From: Tabrizicola fusiformis
GTDB taxonomy: Bacteria; Pseudomonadota; Alphaproteobacteria; Rhodobacterales; Rhodobacteraceae
Assembly (NCBI RefSeq): GCF_013328815.1
Contig: NZ_JABUHN010000001.1
Span: 186,001-250,000, forward strand
Direction of reading: 5' to 3'
Length of the DNA: 64,000 bases
Made by a program: the position numbers and the translations under genes. Positions 21,342 to 63,131 of this stretch are shown here, in pieces (position 1 is the stretch's first letter; the number at the start of each line of letters is the position of its first letter). Under the pieces are notes generated by a model that saw nothing but the letters and a program-made list of their open reading frames with translations, had not been told where the DNA came from and did not search any database.

Positions 21342-22364
21342 TCAAGGCGCGAGCAACTTGGTCGAGGTCGAAATGACCTCGACCCTTCTGTTTTTCTGCC
21401 GCCCCTCATCGGTCTGGTTCGAGGCGCGGGGTGCCAGATAGCCCACCCCCTCGGCCTGCACCTGTCCGCTGCCCACACCCAGCCGGTTGATCAGATAGGC
21501 GCGCACGCTTTCCGCCCGCGCCTTGGACAGCCGGATATTGCCCGCCAGCGCGCCCGAGGCATCGGTATGGCCGACCAGCGTGACCTGCCGCGCCGGATCG
21601 GCCGTCAGCCAACCGGCAAGCGCGGTGAGCGAGGCGAAATCACCCGTGGCCAATTCGGCCTTGCCGGTGGCAAAGACCAGATCCTCCAGCACCTCGGGCT
21701 GCCCCAGTTCCAGACGCTTGCCCAGATTGGCAGCGCTTTCCACCGTGGTTCCGGGGGGCGGGGCGGGCAGGGCAAAGGCCGACTGGTCGGGCACCGGCGC
21801 GATGAAGGGCGATTTGGTCGAAGTGGTCAAGAGCGGCGCCGGACGCAGCCCCCTGCCGATCCGTGTCACCTGAACAAAACCGTCATGTGCCGACCGGCTG
21901 ACCAGCAACGCGACGAATTCCGGCCCGGACGGGCCGCTGCGCTCGGCCGCGAGATAGCGGAAATCGCCCAGATCAACATGCATGTCCGGTTCGGGCAGAA
22001 CATCGGTGCCAAAGCGGAAGTCGAACCCGCCACAGGCTTCGGTCTCGCATTCGTAAAGCGCGGAGAAGCCTTCCGCGGCCAGTTGTTCGCGCAGGGGTGC
22101 GATGAGTTCCAGCGTCGAAAGCCCGGGCGTGGCGATTTTCCACGCCGTCTGTTCCAGCGCGCCCTCGGTCTGCTGTGTCGGCAGGGCGCCCGCCGCATAG
22201 GGCCCGATCGGCAGGCGGAAGGTGGTCGAAGGATCGGTCCGGCTGGCCGTGGTTTCCGCTGGGCCGGGCAGCATCAGGTCAAACCCAAGCGCGGGCTGCG
22301 CAACCATCACGGTCGCAGCCAAGGCCGCAGCACAGCGCCGCAACGGGGCAATCCGGGTCTTCAC
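21342..22364 (-). CDS. OmpA-family peptidoglycan-binding protein
   Basis: 340 residues with a signal peptide (cleavage near PALG, residue 27) and no lipobox. The C-terminal 115 residues are an OmpA-like domain (LVGHTDASGALAGNIRLSKA, RAESVRAYLINRLGV, GRQKNRRVEV) that binds diaminopimelate in peptidoglycan. The N-terminal 200 residues have no clear family; one cysteine pair (YECETEACGGF) may form a disulphide. It is likely a periplasmic cell-wall-associated protein. It lies 21 bases after the GNAT gene stop on the same strand and converges on the LysR gene. Confidence 0.87.
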   Translation of the reverse strand: MKTRIAPLRRCAAALAATVMVAQPALGFDLMLPGPAETTASRTDPSTTFRLPIGPYAAGALPTQQTEGALEQTAWKIATPGLSTLELIAPLREQLAAEGFSALYECETEACGGFDFRFGTDVLPEPDMHVDLGDFRYLAAERSGPSGPEFVALLVSRSAHDGFVQVTRIGRGLRPAPLLTTSTKSPFIAPVPDQSAFALPAPPPGTTVESAANLGKRLELGQPEVLEDLVFATGKAELATGDFASLTALAGWLTADPARQVTLVGHTDASGALAGNIRLSKARAESVRAYLINRLGVGSGQVQAEGVGYLAPRASNQTDEGRQKNRRVEVISTSTKLLAP

Positions 22365-46111: not shown

Positions 46112-46606
46112 TCAGCTTATCGGGCAATCGGTGACGGCAAGGTCCAGTGCCAGCTTGGCTTTCGGTCCGTAATCAAGGCCGGATACGTTGATATAAAGCG
46201 CATTTCCGCTGCGATAGACCGCTTCGGGGCGGATCGGCATGGTGGTTTCCGCCCGGTCGATCCGCGCCTCGGAAAAGACCAGACAATCGCCCTTGAAATG
46301 CAGCACATAGCCGTTGAAGGCGGCGGGCCAGAAGTTCCCCTGCGCCTCGGGATAGCTGAGTTCGATCCGGCCCGGTGTGATTTCAACCTGCACCGGCACC
46401 ACGTCAAAGCCAAGGGCGTGACCCTCCGGCCCCATGCCGAATTCCACGCCCTGACCGACTTTCACCGTCACGCCCTCGCTTTCGAACAGGGGTGCGGCGG
46501 GGTCGTCCCATGTCAGGACATTCATCGTGACAAGTCGCCCTTCCAGCGTGCCGCCAGGGGCGGGCGTGGCGGTCAGCAGGGCAAGCAACAGGAACAGTCG
46601 GCGCAT
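46112..46606 (-). CDS. exported protein of unknown function
   Basis: 164 residues with an N-terminal signal peptide (MRRLFLLLALLTATPAPGG, cleavage near residue 18-20) and no lipobox. The mature protein is beta-rich and compact, with two cysteines (GDCLVF and TDCPIS) that could form a disulphide. No family was recognised. ATG 46606 is chosen: GGAGA lies six bases before it, whereas the ATG at 46612 lies almost on that site. Confidence 0.78.
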   Translation of the reverse strand: MRRLFLLLALLTATPAPGGTLEGRLVTMNVLTWDDPAAPLFESEGVTVKVGQGVEFGMGPEGHALGFDVVPVQVEITPGRIELSYPEAQGNFWPAAFNGYVLHFKGDCLVFSEARIDRAETTMPIRPEAVYRSGNALYINVSGLDYGPKAKLALDLAVTDCPIS

Positions 46607-46686
46607 GGGCATTCTCCGGCAGGCAGCGGCATCAGAATGCCGTGCCGCGCCCTGCCTGTCGCGTGACAAAACCCGTCAGGTGCGGA

Positions 46687-48870: not shown

Positions 48871-49041
48871 CGCAGGGTCTCTCGGCAAGGATGTTTCGTC
48901 TGAATTGCGTATGGCGATATATTGTTGCGCATTTGCTTGCAAGCTGAATTTGCGGATGCAGCATCGCAGATGCGGCATGACAAATCTCGTCACGCCGCCG
49001 CAGCCCCTTGCCCGGTCGGCAGGGGGCGGTATCTTTCGGCC

Positions 49042-51000
49042 ATGACCCGGTTTAATGCGCCCCTTGCCCTGCTGGCCCTGCTTGCCGTTCCTGCGGAGGC
49101 CGAGACGCGGGCGCTGCTGGTCGGCGTGTCGGATTACACCGTGCTGGATGCCGACCTGAAAGGCCCTGCCGACGATGTGCGCCTGATGGCCGGGGTGCTG
49201 GCGGCGCGCGGTGTGGCGCCGGGGGCGATGGTGGCGCTGACCTCGGACGCCAGCGGGCTGGACCCGGCGATTGCAACCGGCCAGCCGACCCGTGCCGCGA
49301 TCCTGCAGGCGATGGTGGCGCTTGAGACCGGTGCCGCGCCGGGTGATACGGTGGTTTTCTACTTCTCTGGCCATGGCGCAGAGGCGCCCGACCTGAGCGG
49401 CGACGAGGGCGGCGGCTATGACGAAATCCTGCTGCCCGCCGATGCCGCGGGCTGGAAAGGCGCCATCGGTGCGGTGGAAAACGCCATTATGGACGACGAA
49501 TTGCAGGATTGGGCGCAGGGCGTGCTGGCCAGGGGGGTGAAGCTGGTCGGGCTAATCGACGCCTGCCATTCCGCCACCGGCTTTCGCGCGGTCGGCGGGG
49601 CGGGCGTGCCGCGCGGGCTGGGGGCCGAGGCGCTGTCGATCCCGGCGGGGGTGGCATCCGCCCCCCCCGGCCCCCCTGCGCCGCCGCTGACAGGGGAGTT
49701 TGTGTTCCTTTACTCCTCGCAATCCGATCAGCGCAGTTTTGAATATCCGCTGGCCGATGGCAGCGGCTGGCATGGCGAGTTCACCTTGTGACTGGCGCAA
49801 ATCCTGCAGGCAGCGCCCGGTGCCAGTTGGGCGCAGGTGCTGGCCGCGACCTCGGATGCGATGGTGCAGGGACCGGCGCGGCAGGTGCCCGATGGCGAGG
49901 GGCCGCTGTTGCAGGCGCCGGTTTTCGGCACGGGCGCGGTGGCGCTGCGCCATGCCATCAAGGCAAGGGCGTTGTCTGCCGGCCTGCTGCAAGGGCTGGC
50001 CGAGGGCGATACGGTGGCCTTCTTTGCCGCTCCTGCCGGGGGCGAGATGCTGGGCGAGGCGGTGCTGACCGGGGTCGAGGCGCGCAGCGCCGGGCTGTCG
50101 GGCATGGTGCCGCAGGGCGCGCTTTGGGCCGAGGTGGTGGCCCCGGCGCCCCCGCCGCCGCTGCGGCTGGCGGTGCCGGTGAAGGCGGATGGTGCGGATT
50201 ATGACCGCTGGAAGGCGGCGCTGCCAGAGGCTGCCAAGGGCGAGGTTGATCTGGTGCCGATCCTGACCGGCGGTCAGGTTGCGCTGGTTGGGCCGGACGG
50301 CGTGCTGGACCCGGGTGGCCCCGGCTCGACCCCGCGGATTGCGCTTGAGGGCAGCGAAACCGAGGCGATGGCGGTGGAGCGCGTGCTGACCGCCGCAGGT
50401 CATTCCCTGCGGCTGCGCAAGCTTCTGGCGGGGCTCGCCGGGCGCAGCCTGACTGGCAAACCGGCGCTGGAGGCGCGCTATGAGCGGCGCCCGGGCCGCG
50501 ACGGGGGCGGCCAATGCACCGATTTCGGCCCGAAAGAGCCGGTGGACCCGGCCCGCGGCCTGCAGCCCTGCGATCAGCTTTGGGTGACCTTCACCAATGT
50601 TTCCGGCAAGGTGCTGGATGTCTCGGCGCTGTATTTCAACGCCGATTTCACCATCTCGCCGGTCTGGCCGCAGGCGGGCCTGTCCAACAGGCTGGCCCCC
50701 GGCGAAAGCGCGCGGGCCGGGCTGCAGATCCTGCCCGGCTCAACCGGGTTCGAGGAGTTGCTGCTGCTTGCCGTGCCGGTGGGCGAGGATGGCGCGCGCG
50801 CCGACCTGACCCGGCTGGCGGAACCGGCGATGACCCGCAGCTTTGCCAGCCTCAGCGGGCCGGCCGAAAACTGGATCGAAGACTGGATGACGGGCGGCAG
50901 CGTCACGCGGGGCTTTTCCACCCGCCCCGCTGCCGTCATGATGCTGCGGCAGCCGGTGCGGCTTGGCGCCGGGTCTGCCTTGGGAGAGGGACAAGAATGA
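49042..51000 (+). pseudogene. caspase-family (C14) periplasmic protease gene interrupted by one in-frame TGA
   Basis: The first half (49042-49791, 249 residues) has a signal peptide (cleavage near AEA, residue 20) and a complete caspase-like p20 domain: H111 in FYFSGHGAEAPD and C175 in LIDACHSATGFR. Codon 250 is TGA (49789-49791); the same frame then continues open to 51000, which would give 652 residues, with domain-like sequence right after the stop (LAQILQAAPGASWAQVLAAT). There is no frameshift or second lesion. Either a recent nonsense change, TGA read-through or a sequencing error. If truncated, a secreted catalytic half is still made. Overlaps the protease gene downstream by four bases. 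Confidence 0.85.
49789..49817 (+). other. in-frame TGA codon followed by a short hairpin
   Basis: TGA at 49789-49791 is followed by C (TGAC, a context known to allow read-through in some systems) and by GGCGC (49794-49798) that can pair with GCGCC (49813-49817). The hairpin is short and its loop lacks the known bacterial selenocysteine loop pattern, so it is recorded as sequence structure only. Confidence 0.35.
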
Positions 51001-52040
51001 ACCGTTTGCTGATTGCCGCCCTGATGCTGGCGCTGCCCTGTGCGGCGCTGGCCGAGGACAAGCCCTTTGCGCTGAAACCGGCGGGCAAGAACCCCTATGA
51101 ATACGCCCGCTCGGGCGCCAAGGCCGCGCATGAGGCGGCTGCGCGGGCGGCAGGCGGCGGCAAGGTGATCGGCGGGGCGGTGGCGGCCGAAGGGGCCTGG
51201 CCCTGGCAGGTGGCGCTGATGATCAACGGTGCGCCGGTCTCGCCCGACGGGCAGTTCTGCGGCGGCTCGATGATCCTTGACCAATGGGTGCTGACGGCGG
51301 CGCATTGCGTGCATATGGCCGATGACGCGGGCAACTGGGCCGATCTGGAACCGGCCAAGATCTCGGTTCTGGTGGGCACCAACACCATCGCGCCGGGCAA
51401 GGGCGATCTGGTGGGCGTGGCGGGCATCTACCGCCATCCCGATTATGTCGGCACCGCCTTTGACCATGACATCGCCCTGATCAAGCTGACCCGCGCGCCG
51501 CAGGTGCCCTATGCCACCATTCAGGTGCCCGACGCCCAGTTCGGCGACCTGTTGGACCAGCCGGGCGTGGTGACGGTCGTCACCGGCTGGGGCCTGACCG
51601 AAGGCGGCGCGCATCCCGAGGCCATGCATCAGACCGAGATTCAGATGATGGACCGCAACCAGTGCAATCAGGCCATGCTGGAGGCGCGTGCCGAAGCGGC
51701 GGTGGACGGGTTCGGTTATGCCGTTGGCGTTCTCAGCCTGAAAGAGGAAGACGCCTATGCGCTGTGGGACGAACTCGTCGCCCGCGCCCCGGCACCGATG
51801 AGCCAGAACATGCTGTGTTCCGGCACGTTCGAGGGCGGCAAGACCGCCTGTTCGGGCGACAGCGGCGGGCCCTTGGTGGTGCCCTTGGAGGATGGCAGCT
51901 ATATTCAGGCAGGTGTGGTCAGTTGGGGCCTTTCGGCGGCCGACGGAAAGGGCTGCGAGGAAACGGCCCTCTTCTCGGCCTATACGCGGGTGTCGAATTT
52001 CCTGCCTTGGCTTGAGGCGACGATCGACGCCCATCCGTAA
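50997..52040 (+). CDS. trypsin-fold (S1) serine protease, secreted zymogen
   Basis: 347 residues. A signal peptide (cleavage near ALA, residue 19) is followed by a propeptide to K56, then VIGGAVAAEGAWPWQVAL, the typical new N-terminus after zymogen cleavage. The triad is H103 (LTAAHC), D158 (DHDIALIKL) and S289 (CSGDSGGPL). The S1-pocket residue six before the serine is T283, not the Asp of true trypsin, so it should not prefer Lys or Arg. The start overlaps the caspase-gene stop (ATGA), which couples them and suggests a joint periplasmic function. Confidence 0.93.
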   Translation: MNRLLIAALMLALPCAALAEDKPFALKPAGKNPYEYARSGAKAAHEAAARAAGGGKVIGGAVAAEGAWPWQVALMINGAPVSPDGQFCGGSMILDQWVLTAAHCVHMADDAGNWADLEPAKISVLVGTNTIAPGKGDLVGVAGIYRHPDYVGTAFDHDIALIKLTRAPQVPYATIQVPDAQFGDLLDQPGVVTVVTGWGLTEGGAHPEAMHQTEIQMMDRNQCNQAMLEARAEAAVDGFGYAVGVLSLKEEDAYALWDELVARAPAPMSQNMLCSGTFEGGKTACSGDSGGPLVVPLEDGSYIQAGVVSWGLSAADGKGCEETALFSAYTRVSNFLPWLEATIDAHP

Positions 52041-57505: not shown

Positions 57506-57677
57506 TCCGCCGTCCTGACCCTTGGCACCGGGTTTCACCCGGGCGACTCACCAGAACATTCCCGCAACAAGATGAACGGGCGCTTAACGTGACAAATCCT
57601 TTCGCCGCCCCGAGAATCCTTGCGAAGCCGCAGACCCCATGCGAGATTCCCCGCGTTCAGTTTCGGAGGATTTTCAG

Positions 57678-60600
57678 ATGCGCGGTTTTCGCCCGGCCCG
57701 TTTTTTTGCGGTGCTTGCAATTGCTTGGCTCGGGGCGCTGGCCCCCGCACTGACCCCGGCGCTGGCCGATGATCTGATCCCGGACCGCCGTTTCGTGCTG
57801 TCGGAAAACACCGACATGCCGGGCGGCGACCTCACCTCGATTTTCGACACCACGCTGGACGCTTGCGAGCGGGCCTGCCTGACCAACCGCGTCTGCACCG
57901 CCTTCACCTTCAACACCCGCAACGGATCGTGCTTTCCGAAATCGGGCGCGGGCGGGCCCGAGACCTATCAGGGCGCCTATTCCGGCATCGTGATTGAAGG
58001 CGATGCCAAGGCCGAGGCGCTGGCGGCGACGCGGGCGGCGGAACTGACCTTTGTCGGGGCCTGGGAACTGCCCGGCGTGACCGCGCAGGCGGCCAATCTG
58101 GCCAATGCCCATGTCACCAACGGCTACTCCGCCGAAGAGCATCTTGCCGCCGCCGCCGAGGCGGAAGCCAAGGGCGACCTTCTGGAGGCCAGCCGCTTTG
58201 TTGGTGCAGCGCTGAACCTGACCGATACGGCGGCAGATTGGGCCGAATATGCCCGGCTGCTGAATGCGGCGGGTCAAGTTAACCCCGGGTCCAACCGTGG
58301 CCTGCTGGAGCAGGCTTACACAGCCGCCGTCAACGCCTATCTGCGGGCGGACGGCGCCGCGCAACAGCACACGATTCTGGTGACCATGGCCGACGCGCTG
58401 GAAGGTGCCGACCGTGGCCGCGACACGGTGCAGGCGCTGCGTCTGGCGGAAAAGTTGCAGCACCGCGACGATACCGCTGCCGCGCTGGACGATGCCATCG
58501 GCAAATACGGCTTTCGCGTTGCCGATAACGAGGTGCAGGCCGATTCCGCCCGCCCCCGCATCTGCGTGAATTTCACCGAGGATCTGGTGAAGACGGGCGT
58601 GGATTACGCCACCTTCGTCCAGCTTCCCGCACCCGACCTGTCGGTCAGCTTCGACGGCTGGCGGCAGTTGTGTATCGAGGGCCTGACCCATGGCAGCCGC
58701 AATTCGGTGACCTTCCGCGAGGGGCTTCCGGCGGCGGATGGTCAGGTTTTGGCGAAATCGGTCGAGATCACCGCCTATATCCGCGACCGCAACCCCGGGG
58801 TGCGCTTCCCCGGGCGCGGCTATGTCCTGCCGCGCATGGCGGGTGCCTCGATCCCGGTTGAGACGGTGAACACCGAAAAGCTGGAACTGACGCTGTATCG
58901 GGTGACCGACCGCAACCTGCTGCGGGCCACGCAGAACGGCTATTTCGGCTGGCCGATGATGGAATATCAGGAATACGATTTCGGCAGCCAGATCGGCACC
59001 GAGGTCTGGCATGGCGATGCCAGCGTCAAGCAAGAGGTCAACCGCGACCTGACCACCCGCCTGCCGATGGGCGAGGCGATTGATGGCCAACCTGCCGGCG
59101 TCTATGCCCTGCGCGCCGCGGTGCCGGGGGTGGACCCCTATCAGATTGGCGCGGCATGGCAGTGGTTCGTCGTGTCCGACCTTGGCCTGACCACGATGAG
59201 CGGGGTCGATGGGCTGCATGTCTTCGTCCGCTCGCTGGGCACGGCGGCGGCGAAAGAGGGGGTGACGGTTGAACTCCTCAGCCAGACGAACGAGGTTCTG
59301 GGGTCTGCCAAGACCGATGCGCAGGGCTATGTCCGCTTTGATGCCGGGCTGGCGCTTGGCACCGGCGCTGCCGCTCCGGCGATGATCGTGGCGAAAGAGG
59401 GCGACAGCGACCTTGCCTTCCTGTCGATGACCGACCCCGAGTTTGACCTGTCTGACCGTGGGGTGGAAGGGCGCGAAGCCGCGCCGCCGGTTGATGTCTT
59501 CCTGACTACCGACCGGGGCGCCTACCGCGCCGGGGAAACCGTCTATGCCACCGCCCTTGCCCGCGATCCGCAGGCCGAGGCGGTGGAAGGTCTGCCGCTG
59601 ACCGCCGTGCTGCTGCGTCCCGATGGCGTCGAATATTCCCGCGCGCTGGTGCAGGATGGCGGGGCGGGCGGGCATGTCTTTGCCCTGCCGATTGCCGGTT
59701 CCGCCCCGCGCGGTGTCTGGCGGCTTGAGGTTTATGCCGATGCCGATGCTGGCGCCTTGCAGTCGAAGACCTTCCTTGTCGAGGATTTCCTGCCCGAGCG
59801 GATCGACTTTGACCTGACCCTTGACGATCAGGCCGTCCGGCTGGGCGATACCCCGGAACTGACCGTTTCGGCGAAATACCTGTTCGGTGCCCCGGGGGCC
59901 GATCTGGCGGTTGAGGGCGAGGTGCTGCTGCGTGCTGCCAAGGGCCTTGAAGCCTGGCCGGGCTATGTCTTTGGCCGCCATGACCAACCCTTCTCGGCCG
60001 TCATGCAAAGCTTTGGCGGCACCCGCACGGCTGAGGATGGCACCGCGCTGGTCACGCTGGACCTGCCGCCGGTGGATGATCCGGGCCTGCCGCTGGAAAT
60101 GCGCGCCACCGTGCGCGTCGCCGAAGGTTCGGGCCGCCCGGTGGAGCGGCAGGTGACCAAGCTGTTGACGCCCGCGAACCCGCTGATCGGGGTCAAGCCG
60201 CTGTTCGATGCGGTGGTGCCCGAAGGCAGCGAGGCGCGGTTCAGTCTGGTCGGCGTCGGTGCGGATGCGAAGGCGACCCCGATGAAGGTGCGCTGGGAAA
60301 TCACCCGGATCGAGACGAATTATCAATGGTATCAAAGCTATGGCAACTGGAACTGGGAGCCGGTCTATTCCCGCACCCGCGTTGCCGAAGGGCTGTCCGA
60401 CCTGTCGCAGGCGGCGGAAATTGCCGCCAAGGTGGAATGGGGTGAATATGAGCTGAAGGTGGAACGGGTGGATGGCGAGGCCGCCACCTCTACCCTGTTC
60501 TGGGCCGGTTGGTATGCGCCCGCCGATGCCAGCGCCACGCCGGACACGCTGGAACTCTCGCTGGACAAACCCGCCTACAAGCCGGGCGATACCGCCACGC

Positions 60601-63131
60601 TGCGGGTGGTGCCGCGTGCGGCGGGAACGGCGCTGGTCACCGTGCTGTCGAACCGGCTGGTGGCGATGCAGGCGGTTGAGGTGAAAGAGGGCGAAAACCT
60701 GATCCCGCTGGCCGTCACCGATGATTGGGGTGCAGGGGTTTATGTTACCGTTTCGGCGCTGCGGCCGATGGATGTTGCGGCGGGCCGCAACCCGGCCCGA
60801 GCGCTGGGCCTGACCCATGCCACGATTGACCCGGGCACGCGGGCGCTGACGGCGACGATTGAAACCGCCGCCGAAGCCGCCCCGCGCGGGCCGATGGCGG
60901 TGGCGGTCAAGGTCGATGGCGTGGCCGCGGGCGATGCCGCCTTTGTCACCATCGCGGCGATTGATCAGGGCATCCTGAACCTGACCGGCTTTACCCCACC
61001 CGATCCGCAGGGCCATTACTTTGGTCAGCGCAAGCTGGGCGTCGGCATCCGTGACATTTATGGCCGCCTGATCGACGGTCTGAACGGAGCCGAAGGCACC
61101 GTGCGTTCGGGCGGCGATGCGGGCGCGCAGGCGCGACTGCAGGCCCCTCCCCCCACGGAAGAGCTGGTGGCCTATTTCACCGGCCCGATTGCGGTGGATG
61201 CCGATGGCTATGCCCGTGCCAGCTTTGACCTGCCCTCGTTCAACGGCAGCGTGAAGGTGATGGCCGTTGCCTGGTCGAAACGCGGCGTGGGGCAGGCGAA
61301 TGCCGATGTGCTGGTGCGCGATCCGGTGGTGGTCACGGCCAGCCTGCCGCGCTTCCTGTCGCCGGGCGATGAAAGCCGTCTGCTCTTGGAAATCGTCCAT
61401 GCCACCGGGCCTTCGGGCCGGATGAGCCTTGATGTTGCCTCGGCCGGCCTGACGCTGGGCGATGTGCCGTCGGGCTTTGATCTGGGCGACAAGGCCAAGG
61501 CGGTCTTTGCCGTGCCGGTCACGGCGGGGGCGGTCGGCAACCAGACCATTACGGTTTCGCTGACCACACCGGACGGCAAGGTGCTGAAGAAAGAGCTGAC
61601 CGTCCCGGTGCAGGTCAATGACCCGCCGGTGGTGCGCGTCAGCCGTCTGACGCTGGCCAAGGGGCAGTCGTTCACGCTGGACCAGAACGCCTTTGCCGGG
61701 ATGATCCCCGGCACCGCCAAGGCGACGATGGCCGTCGGCCCGATTGCCCGGCTGAACGCGCCCGGCATCCTCGCGGCGCTGGACCGCTATCCCTATGGCT
61801 GCACCGAGCAGATGACCTCCAAGGCGCTGCCGCTGTTGTATTTCGATCAGGTGGCGGTGGCGCTGGACCTGCCGCAGGCCGACAACATCAAGGGCCGGGT
61901 GCAGGAAACCATCACCGAAATCCTGATGAACCAGTCGGCCAATGGCGGCTTTGGCCTCTGGGGGCCTGCCGATGGCGACATGTGGCTGGATGCCTTCGTG
62001 ACCGACTTCCTCAGCCGTGCCAAGGCGCGCGGGTTCGAGGTGCCGGAACTGGCGCTGCGCCGTTCGCTCGACAACTTGCGCAATCAGGTCAACTATCAGC
62101 CCGATTTCGATAAGGGCGGCGAGGCGCTGGCCTATGCGCTGATGGTGCTGGCGCGTGAAGGCGCGGCGGCGGTGGGCGACCTGCGCTATTACGTCGATGT
62201 CAAGGGCGATGCCTTTGCCACCCCGGCGGCGATGGCGCAACTGGGCGCGGCCTTGGCCAGCTATGGCGACCAGCCCCGCGCGGATGCGATGTTCCGCCGT
62301 GCCGCTGTGGCGCTGGATGCGCTGAAAGGCCCGGAGACCGAGCAGATCTTCCGCGCCGATTATGGCACCACCTACCGCGATGCAGCGGCGGTGCTGGCAC
62401 TGGCGGCGGAAACCGGCAGTCAGGCCGTGGACCGCGAGGCGCTGACCACCCGCATCACTCAGGACCGCAGCCTTTCGACGCAAGAGGCAACCTGGGCCCT
62501 GCTGGCGGCCAATGCGCTGATCGACCGCAAAGGGGCCGAGGGCATCACCATCGACGGTGCCCCTGCGGGTGGGCCGCTGGTCAAGGTGCTGGACGCGGGG
62601 GCGACGCAGCCGGTGGCGGTGAAGAACGGCAGCGACGCCGACACGACGCTGACCATCACCACCTATGGCGTGCCGTCGGAACCCGAACCCGCAGGCGGCA
62701 CCGGCTATGCCATCACCCGCAGCTATTACACGCTGGCCGGTGAGGCGGCGACGCTGGACGGGCTCAAGGTGGGTGACCGGCTGGTCGTGGTGCTGGAGGT
62801 GACGCCCTTTGGTCGCGGTGAAGCGCGGCTGATGGTGAACGATCCGCTTCCGGCGGGGCTGGAGATCGACAATCCTAACCTGATCACCGGCGGCTCGACG
62901 CAGGCGCTTGACTGGCTGAACCTGCAATCCGAAGTGGCGCACAGCGAATTCCGGCAGGACCGTTTCCTGACCGCGATTGACCGCTACGACAATCAGCCCT
63001 TCCGGCTGGCCTATATCGTGCGCGCCATCTCGCCCGGCAGTTTCCACCACCCGGCGGCCTCGGTCGAAGACATGTATCGCCCCGACCTGACGGGCCGCAG
63101 CGAGACCGGCCGTCTGGTGATCGCCGAGTAA
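57678..63131 (+). CDS. bacterial alpha-2-macroglobulin with N-terminal PAN-like domain
   Basis: 1817 residues. The signal peptide ends near ALA (residue 30), with no lipobox. A PAN/apple-like module follows (C63, C67, C73, C85 in DACERACLTNRVCTAF and RNGSCFPKS), then the macroglobulin domains (about 290-1300) and the thioester region YGCTEQMTSKALPLLYF with C1375 and Q1378, the residues that form the thioester in bacterial macroglobulins. These proteins trap attacking proteases in the periplasm. GGAGGA precedes the ATG. The next gene, one base away, is pbpC, the standard partner. Confidence 0.94.
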   Translation: MRGFRPARFFAVLAIAWLGALAPALTPALADDLIPDRRFVLSENTDMPGGDLTSIFDTTLDACERACLTNRVCTAFTFNTRNGSCFPKSGAGGPETYQGAYSGIVIEGDAKAEALAATRAAELTFVGAWELPGVTAQAANLANAHVTNGYSAEEHLAAAAEAEAKGDLLEASRFVGAALNLTDTAADWAEYARLLNAAGQVNPGSNRGLLEQAYTAAVNAYLRADGAAQQHTILVTMADALEGADRGRDTVQALRLAEKLQHRDDTAAALDDAIGKYGFRVADNEVQADSARPRICVNFTEDLVKTGVDYATFVQLPAPDLSVSFDGWRQLCIEGLTHGSRNSVTFREGLPAADGQVLAKSVEITAYIRDRNPGVRFPGRGYVLPRMAGASIPVETVNTEKLELTLYRVTDRNLLRATQNGYFGWPMMEYQEYDFGSQIGTEVWHGDASVKQEVNRDLTTRLPMGEAIDGQPAGVYALRAAVPGVDPYQIGAAWQWFVVSDLGLTTMSGVDGLHVFVRSLGTAAAKEGVTVELLSQTNEVLGSAKTDAQGYVRFDAGLALGTGAAAPAMIVAKEGDSDLAFLSMTDPEFDLSDRGVEGREAAPPVDVFLTTDRGAYRAGETVYATALARDPQAEAVEGLPLTAVLLRPDGVEYSRALVQDGGAGGHVFALPIAGSAPRGVWRLEVYADADAGALQSKTFLVEDFLPERIDFDLTLDDQAVRLGDTPELTVSAKYLFGAPGADLAVEGEVLLRAAKGLEAWPGYVFGRHDQPFSAVMQSFGGTRTAEDGTALVTLDLPPVDDPGLPLEMRATVRVAEGSGRPVERQVTKLLTPANPLIGVKPLFDAVVPEGSEARFSLVGVGADAKATPMKVRWEITRIETNYQWYQSYGNWNWEPVYSRTRVAEGLSDLSQAAEIAAKVEWGEYELKVERVDGEAATSTLFWAGWYAPADASATPDTLELSLDKPAYKPGDTATLRVVPRAAGTALVTVLSNRLVAMQAVEVKEGENLIPLAVTDDWGAGVYVTVSALRPMDVAAGRNPARALGLTHATIDPGTRALTATIETAAEAAPRGPMAVAVKVDGVAAGDAAFVTIAAIDQGILNLTGFTPPDPQGHYFGQRKLGVGIRDIYGRLIDGLNGAEGTVRSGGDAGAQARLQAPPPTEELVAYFTGPIAVDADGYARASFDLPSFNGSVKVMAVAWSKRGVGQANADVLVRDPVVVTASLPRFLSPGDESRLLLEIVHATGPSGRMSLDVASAGLTLGDVPSGFDLGDKAKAVFAVPVTAGAVGNQTITVSLTTPDGKVLKKELTVPVQVNDPPVVRVSRLTLAKGQSFTLDQNAFAGMIPGTAKATMAVGPIARLNAPGILAALDRYPYGCTEQMTSKALPLLYFDQVAVALDLPQADNIKGRVQETITEILMNQSANGGFGLWGPADGDMWLDAFVTDFLSRAKARGFEVPELALRRSLDNLRNQVNYQPDFDKGGEALAYALMVLAREGAAAVGDLRYYVDVKGDAFATPAAMAQLGAALASYGDQPRADAMFRRAAVALDALKGPETEQIFRADYGTTYRDAAAVLALAAETGSQAVDREALTTRITQDRSLSTQEATWALLAANALIDRKGAEGITIDGAPAGGPLVKVLDAGATQPVAVKNGSDADTTLTITTYGVPSEPEPAGGTGYAITRSYYTLAGEAATLDGLKVGDRLVVVLEVTPFGRGEARLMVNDPLPAGLEIDNPNLITGGSTQALDWLNLQSEVAHSEFRQDRFLTAIDRYDNQPFRLAYIVRAISPGSFHHPAASVEDMYRPDLTGRSETGRLVIAE

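Follow-up and report, generated by a model that had tools for sequence, protein, structure and literature searches.

Which protease converts a bacterial trypsin-type zymogen into its active form, when the specificity pocket of the enzyme itself does not seem suited to its own activation site? This question is raised by two neighbouring genes within a window of 64,000 nucleotides from Tabrizicola fusiformis (the whole stretch of DNA analysed here). The upstream gene encodes a caspase-like protein (CaspA) and the downstream one a serine protease of the S1 family (S1). The sequence-only reading of this DNA had proposed that the caspase-like protein activates its neighbour, both together forming a two-step proteolytic switch. 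Little is known about the natural substrates of bacterial metacaspase-like enzymes.

The serine protease zymogen and its caspase-like neighbour

The S1 gene (50997..52040; like all features of the pair, on the + strand) encodes a predicted exported S1A serine protease zymogen of 347 amino acids (PF00089, E=2e-45). By inspection, the protein is composed of a signal peptide, a pro-segment ending in GGGK56 and a mature part starting with VIGG; the activation site is thus Lys56/Val57 (51162..51167), as had been read from the sequence. The catalytic residues (His103, 51303..51305; Asp158, 51468..51470; Ser289, 51861..51863), together with the GDSGG motif and the IVGG-type N terminus, are those of the S1A trypsin fold. 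Trypsin specificity is recognised by Asp189 or an acidic residue 226, and neither is present in the window protein: alignment to matriptase and TMPRSS6 places Thr283 (51843..51845) at chymotrypsin position 189, the pocket base, and Ser327 at position 226. The earlier claim that Thr283 stands where the pocket Asp should be is therefore confirmed.

This mismatch between a basic P1 residue and a non-acidic pocket is conserved in 67/67 orthologues. When these proteins were read directly, 45 had Lys and 22 had Arg at P1; residue 189 was Thr (60), Gly (3), Ser (2), Val (1) or Leu (1), never acidic, and at position 226 each of the 67 sequences with an aligned residue had Ser. As a control, other bacterial S1A proteases were taken from a phylum-wide search. 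Asp189 was found in 12/12 control zymogens with a basic P1, two of which are near-duplicates, and the six control proteases lacking Asp189 had Tyr, Ser or Met at P1. The control activation sites fit the pocket of their own enzyme and those of the CaspA-linked orthologues never do, which supports activation by another protease. Judging from these residue patterns, it is very likely that S1 needs an external activator.

The complete CaspA frame extends from 49042 to 51000, with its start at 49042. It was compared with metacaspases and with its own orthologues. His111 (49372..49374) and Cys175 align to the His-Cys dyad of the caspase p20 domain; Cys175 is kept in 73/73 orthologues and His111 in 72/73, the sole exception being a fragment at a contig edge. 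The nearest solved relatives, from profile and fold comparison, are the metacaspases of yeast, Candida, Trypanosoma and Arabidopsis, and the C-terminal region of about 370 residues has no Pfam match. Asp45 (49174..49176), invariant in the orthologues, and Asp173, which forms with Ala and the catalytic Cys175 the stretch 49558..49566, are the conserved equivalents of Asp95 and Asp211 in the S1-binding pocket of TbMCA2; pocket residues of this type accommodate basic substrate residues (PMC6426788, PMC4357240). CaspA is thus predicted to be an exported metacaspase-type protease cutting after Lys or Arg. Both CaspA and S1, described before as secreted, carry a putative signal peptide, although these peptides were judged by eye and secretion itself stays a prediction; if both work, the two proteins would share a compartment and CaspA would be well placed to supply the Lys/Arg-specific activity that S1 lacks. 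Peptidase_C14 matches amount to six in the genome of the window, at L001, L002, L003 and L006 besides CaspA and a second caspase-like protein, CaspB.

The CaspA copy of the window is not one open frame, a point overlooked in the sequence-only reading. An in-frame TGA (49789..49791) at codon 250 ends a 5' part that encodes the signal peptide and caspase residues 1-249 (49042..49791), and it falls within the Peptidase_C14 match (PF00656, residues 23-283). The remnant past the stop (49792..51000), comprising the end of the caspase core and the C-terminal region, keeps its coding character and aligns to full-length orthologues. The overlap of four bases with the S1 gene (ATGA, 50997..51000) exists as described in the sequence-only reading; nevertheless, since the CaspA frame is interrupted, it is formed by the 3' remnant of that frame and not by an intact caspase gene. 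Codon 250 is a sense codon in 23/23 orthologues, where it encodes Arg, Ala, Ser, Asn, Gln, Val or Thr (GCG, CGG, CGC, CAA, AGC, AAC and others). In a larger alignment Arg is the commonest residue at this position (38/73), and the stop could have arisen simply, from CGA by one C-to-T change.

The TGA removes the last part of the caspase core together with about 400 residues at the C terminus. In a structure model of CaspA predicted from an 18-sequence alignment (mean pLDDT 77), it sits in helix 246-257, ahead of helix 263-273, strand 282-286 and the entire C-terminal region; the truncated product should consequently lack part of the caspase core. The stop may be either a true mutation or an assembly error. 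Because of this codon the window is probably devoid of a working CaspA, and it is unlikely that the protein is functional in this strain. That the codon is read through or recoded, giving full-length CaspA, is very improbable: the frame is open and coding in character on both sides of the TGA, but neither TGA nor Cys occurs at this position in the 23 orthologues or in the larger set, which makes conserved readthrough unlikely and led to selenocysteine or programmed readthrough being ruled out. An apparent second internal TGA in G037 (L008) was discarded, codon 250 being there Ala (GCG). In a metagenome bin (L160, 1779-3849) the CaspA frame is called in two pieces, representing a second disrupted CaspA or an assembly error.

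The locus and its putative operator in the Rhodobacteraceae

The conserved adjacency of both families was the point on which the proposal of a functional pair could be refuted, and it was found. A protein search detected an S1 orthologue in 22 of 395 genomes of the family, and in 22/22 CaspA lies directly upstream on the same strand. CaspA occurs without an S1 orthologue in G008, and in G025 and G031 the contig ends at that place. When named genomes were scanned, 79 loci were obtained; all came from genera of Rhodobacteraceae/Rhodobacterales or from metagenome bins whose titles give only Rhodobacteraceae, Rhodobacterales or Pseudomonadota. S1 is the next gene after CaspA, mostly less than 100 bp away, in 67 of the 69 loci with enough sequence to show it. 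The linkage is far above chance, and the conservation of locus and pairing is practically certain. Two relatives (L141 and L152) keep CaspA without an adjoining S1, which suggests at least one other role for CaspA.

The pair is conserved, as the two-step switch proposed earlier would require, but it does not stand alone. In most relatives the genes for CaspB and a small PPC-protein, on one strand, are followed on the other by those for an HtrA-like protein, a response regulator, a histidine kinase, sometimes a patatin lipoprotein, CaspA and S1. According to Pfam and NCBIfam, the HtrA-like protein contains Trypsin_2 and PDZ domains, its closest models being Do/HtrA, under their cut-offs; the other products are an OmpR/PhoB-type regulator, a HAMP histidine kinase and a patatin. 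The small PPC-protein has no Pfam match, and its structure model (pLDDT 84) resembles the PPC-type jelly rolls of Tk-SP, KP-43 and collagenases. In many relatives (L082-L087 and others) one or two more genes for PPC-like secreted proteins lie past S1 on the opposite strand. In the genome of the window, the first six genes of the locus (L034) are separated from CaspA and S1 by about 230 kb of the same contig. Another member of its genus (G003, L037) has a reduced locus in which CaspB, the PPC protein and a patatin-type gene remain, whereas the HtrA-like protein, response regulator, kinase, CaspA and S1 were not found there.

Several of these genes share a putative operator. The motif was learned from 48 PPC/HtrA intergenic regions of relatives, and a site with the consensus GTCACATGACAAAGCCCGTCATGA is present in 48/48 of them. 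The 150 bp upstream of genes were then scored, counting scores of at least 7. The operator was found ahead of 44/54 HtrA-type and 68/112 PPC genes, counts that are not independent because these intergenic regions trained the motif, and ahead of 53/76 CaspA genes, which is an independent count; other genes had it in 13/559 cases. Under the same conditions it precedes none of the S1 (0/69), histidine kinase (0/65), patatin (0/45) or CaspB (0/57) genes. Since the operator stands before CaspA and not before S1, S1 would depend on the CaspA promoter, and from these counts CaspA and S1 look like an operator-led unit of their own. In the window the predicted operator is GCGGCATGACAAATCTCGTCACGC (48972..48995, + strand, score 9.3), with one mismatch to the core TGACAAAnnCnGTCA. 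It lies 70 bp before the CaspA start, 70-74 bp being the commonest spacing in relatives, and it is present although the kinase gene is far off (~230 kb).

In the genome of the window the exact core occurs 9 times and its reversed pattern not once; when one mismatch is allowed, the numbers are 49 and 3. These sites precede PPC, DegP-like and several secreted-protein genes. Exact sites per genome average 4.2 where an orthologue of the response regulator is present and 0.8 in family members without it (Mann-Whitney p about 4e-6, a value that is only indicative because related genomes are not independent). This distribution fits binding of the operator by the response regulator of the locus. Matches at L192, L194, L195, L198 and L203 lie ahead of genes for a PPC-like secreted protein, two related secreted proteins of 201-210 residues, a secreted protein of 480 residues and a DegP-like protease, which are candidate members of an envelope regulon.

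Other sites were seen within the window. A strong match (46658-46681, score 23.3, GTCGCGTGACAAAACCCGTCAGGT) lies just upstream of a gene on the - strand (46112-46612) for a predicted secreted protein of 166 residues with no Pfam match, and another operator-like site (score 19.0) is located at 21865-21888. A further one (57584-57607, score 14.7) precedes an alpha-2-macroglobulin gene (57678-63131, +) with a PAN domain, followed by pbpC; this gene was rejected as a member of the module, given that only 3/24 relatives have a clear operator there, and it is regarded as part of a separate a2M-pbpC pair.

Possible activators of the zymogen

The mechanism proposed here is that CaspA and S1 would be the effector end of a cell-envelope proteolysis locus of the Rhodobacteraceae. 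The histidine kinase and the OmpR-type response regulator, whose genes belong to this locus in most relatives, would drive through one operator several units: HtrA-like protein, response regulator and kinase (with or without patatin), PPC-protein and CaspB, and CaspA and S1. The exported zymogen would need a cut after Lys or Arg that its own pocket should be unable to make, CaspA would convert it to the active form, and active S1 would then cut other substrates after uncharged residues. Since CaspA is predicted to cut after Lys/Arg and the zymogen would be unable to cut itself, CaspA is the most likely activator, an assignment that we make with moderate confidence. Counterpoints are that CaspB has the same pocket residues and that S1 of the window is intact despite its interrupted CaspA.

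Related to this, CaspB alone or both caspases redundantly could activate S1, CaspA having other substrates. CaspB carries the two pocket Asp residues (in LKGPANDV and DSCHSG), occurs in every genome of the family sample that has CaspA-S1 and is intact in the genome of the window (L034). However, in 8 of the 395 family genomes CaspB occurs in the absence of CaspA, and S1 is missing from all 8; in the whole sample S1 adjoins CaspA, never CaspB; activation by CaspB is thus considered unlikely. A similarly doubtful explanation is that a different protease, in the envelope or outside the cell, activates S1, or that S1 activates itself in trans in spite of its pocket, and that its position next to CaspA reflects only shared regulation or substrates. 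Co-transcription alone would indeed account for the adjacency, and HtrA-like and DegP-like proteases share the operator, but we know of no preference of HtrA/DegP enzymes for Lys or Arg at P1. Besides, in a PF00089 search of the genome of the window, confined to matches at E<=1e-20, the only S1A trypsin found was S1 itself, though a weaker match or a Lys/Arg protease of another clan may exist as well; and the control zymogens match their own pocket.

It therefore appears reasonably likely, from the comparative sequence evidence, that the locus is an envelope proteolytic module, regulated by its two-component system, in which CaspA activates S1. As to the strain of the window, the nonsense codon and the split locus suggest that the activation step has probably been lost or taken over by CaspB.

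Related systems and significance

CaspA shares with type I metacaspases and bacterial orthocaspases (TbMCA2, yeast and Candida Mca1, MaOC1) the caspase fold, the His-Cys dyad and the two pocket Asp residues tied to Lys/Arg specificity, and it differs from them in its predicted export, its long C-terminal region and its linkage to an S1 zymogen. The chymotrypsinogen-type zymogens of animal digestive and coagulation cascades, which a separate Lys/Arg protease activates, have the S1 fold and a Lys/Arg-(Val/Ile) activation bond that should be out of reach of their own specificity; the present system belongs to bacteria, and the role of activator is proposed for a cysteine protease of the caspase family and not for a serine protease. 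Adjacent genes in which a protease is proposed to activate a proenzyme partner are also found in the caspase-nuclease (canu) pair, with its caspase-family protease, and in the Hachiman/AVAST protease-pronuclease pairs (PMC12799240). Those are antiviral and target a pro-nuclease, whereas the target proposed here is a protease, predicted to be exported, from an envelope locus that includes a two-component system. Peptidases of the caspase and trypsin superfamilies are likewise present in bacterial operons of conflict systems (Kaur et al. 2020, PMC7159879) and of gasdermin/CARD-NLR systems. In the VMAP ternary systems, which have NTPase cores, the caspase-type and trypsin-type peptidases tend to be mutually exclusive (PMC7159879), while here they adjoin, are apparently exported and are accompanied by the kinase and regulator, HtrA, PPC and patatin proteins. 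The CenKR and ChvGI systems of Alphaproteobacteria also place envelope proteins under OmpR-type regulators; nevertheless, their published motifs (TGA-N8-TGA, PMC9275681; TTGC-N3-GCAA, PMC9731502) differ from TGACAAAnnCnGTCA when compared by eye, and assignment of the operator to CenR or ChvI was dropped.

PADLOC returned for the locus only generic single-gene models for the caspase, trypsin-type and patatin proteins, and no published description of it was found in the literature searched, which lay mostly outside subscription journals. There is about an even chance that the locus holds an undescribed envelope zymogen cascade from caspase to serine protease, with two caspases and an HtrA-like protease alongside PPC proteins and a patatin lipoprotein, and governed by its own two-component system through the TGACAAAnnCnGTCA operator, also found ahead of a DegP-like protease gene. 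The association with HtrA-like, DegP-like, PPC and patatin proteins suggests a role in envelope stress or in the turnover of envelope proteins, and the locus may also have a lytic or defence role.

Comparison across genomes yields, in cultured relatives, one candidate substrate of a bacterial metacaspase-like enzyme together with the precise bond, which makes the question directly testable. If the proposal is true, a caspase-family enzyme would act as zymogen activator in the bacterial envelope, in analogy to the trypsin-type cascades of animals, and an envelope proteolysis regulon would be added to the biology of a large environmental bacterial family.
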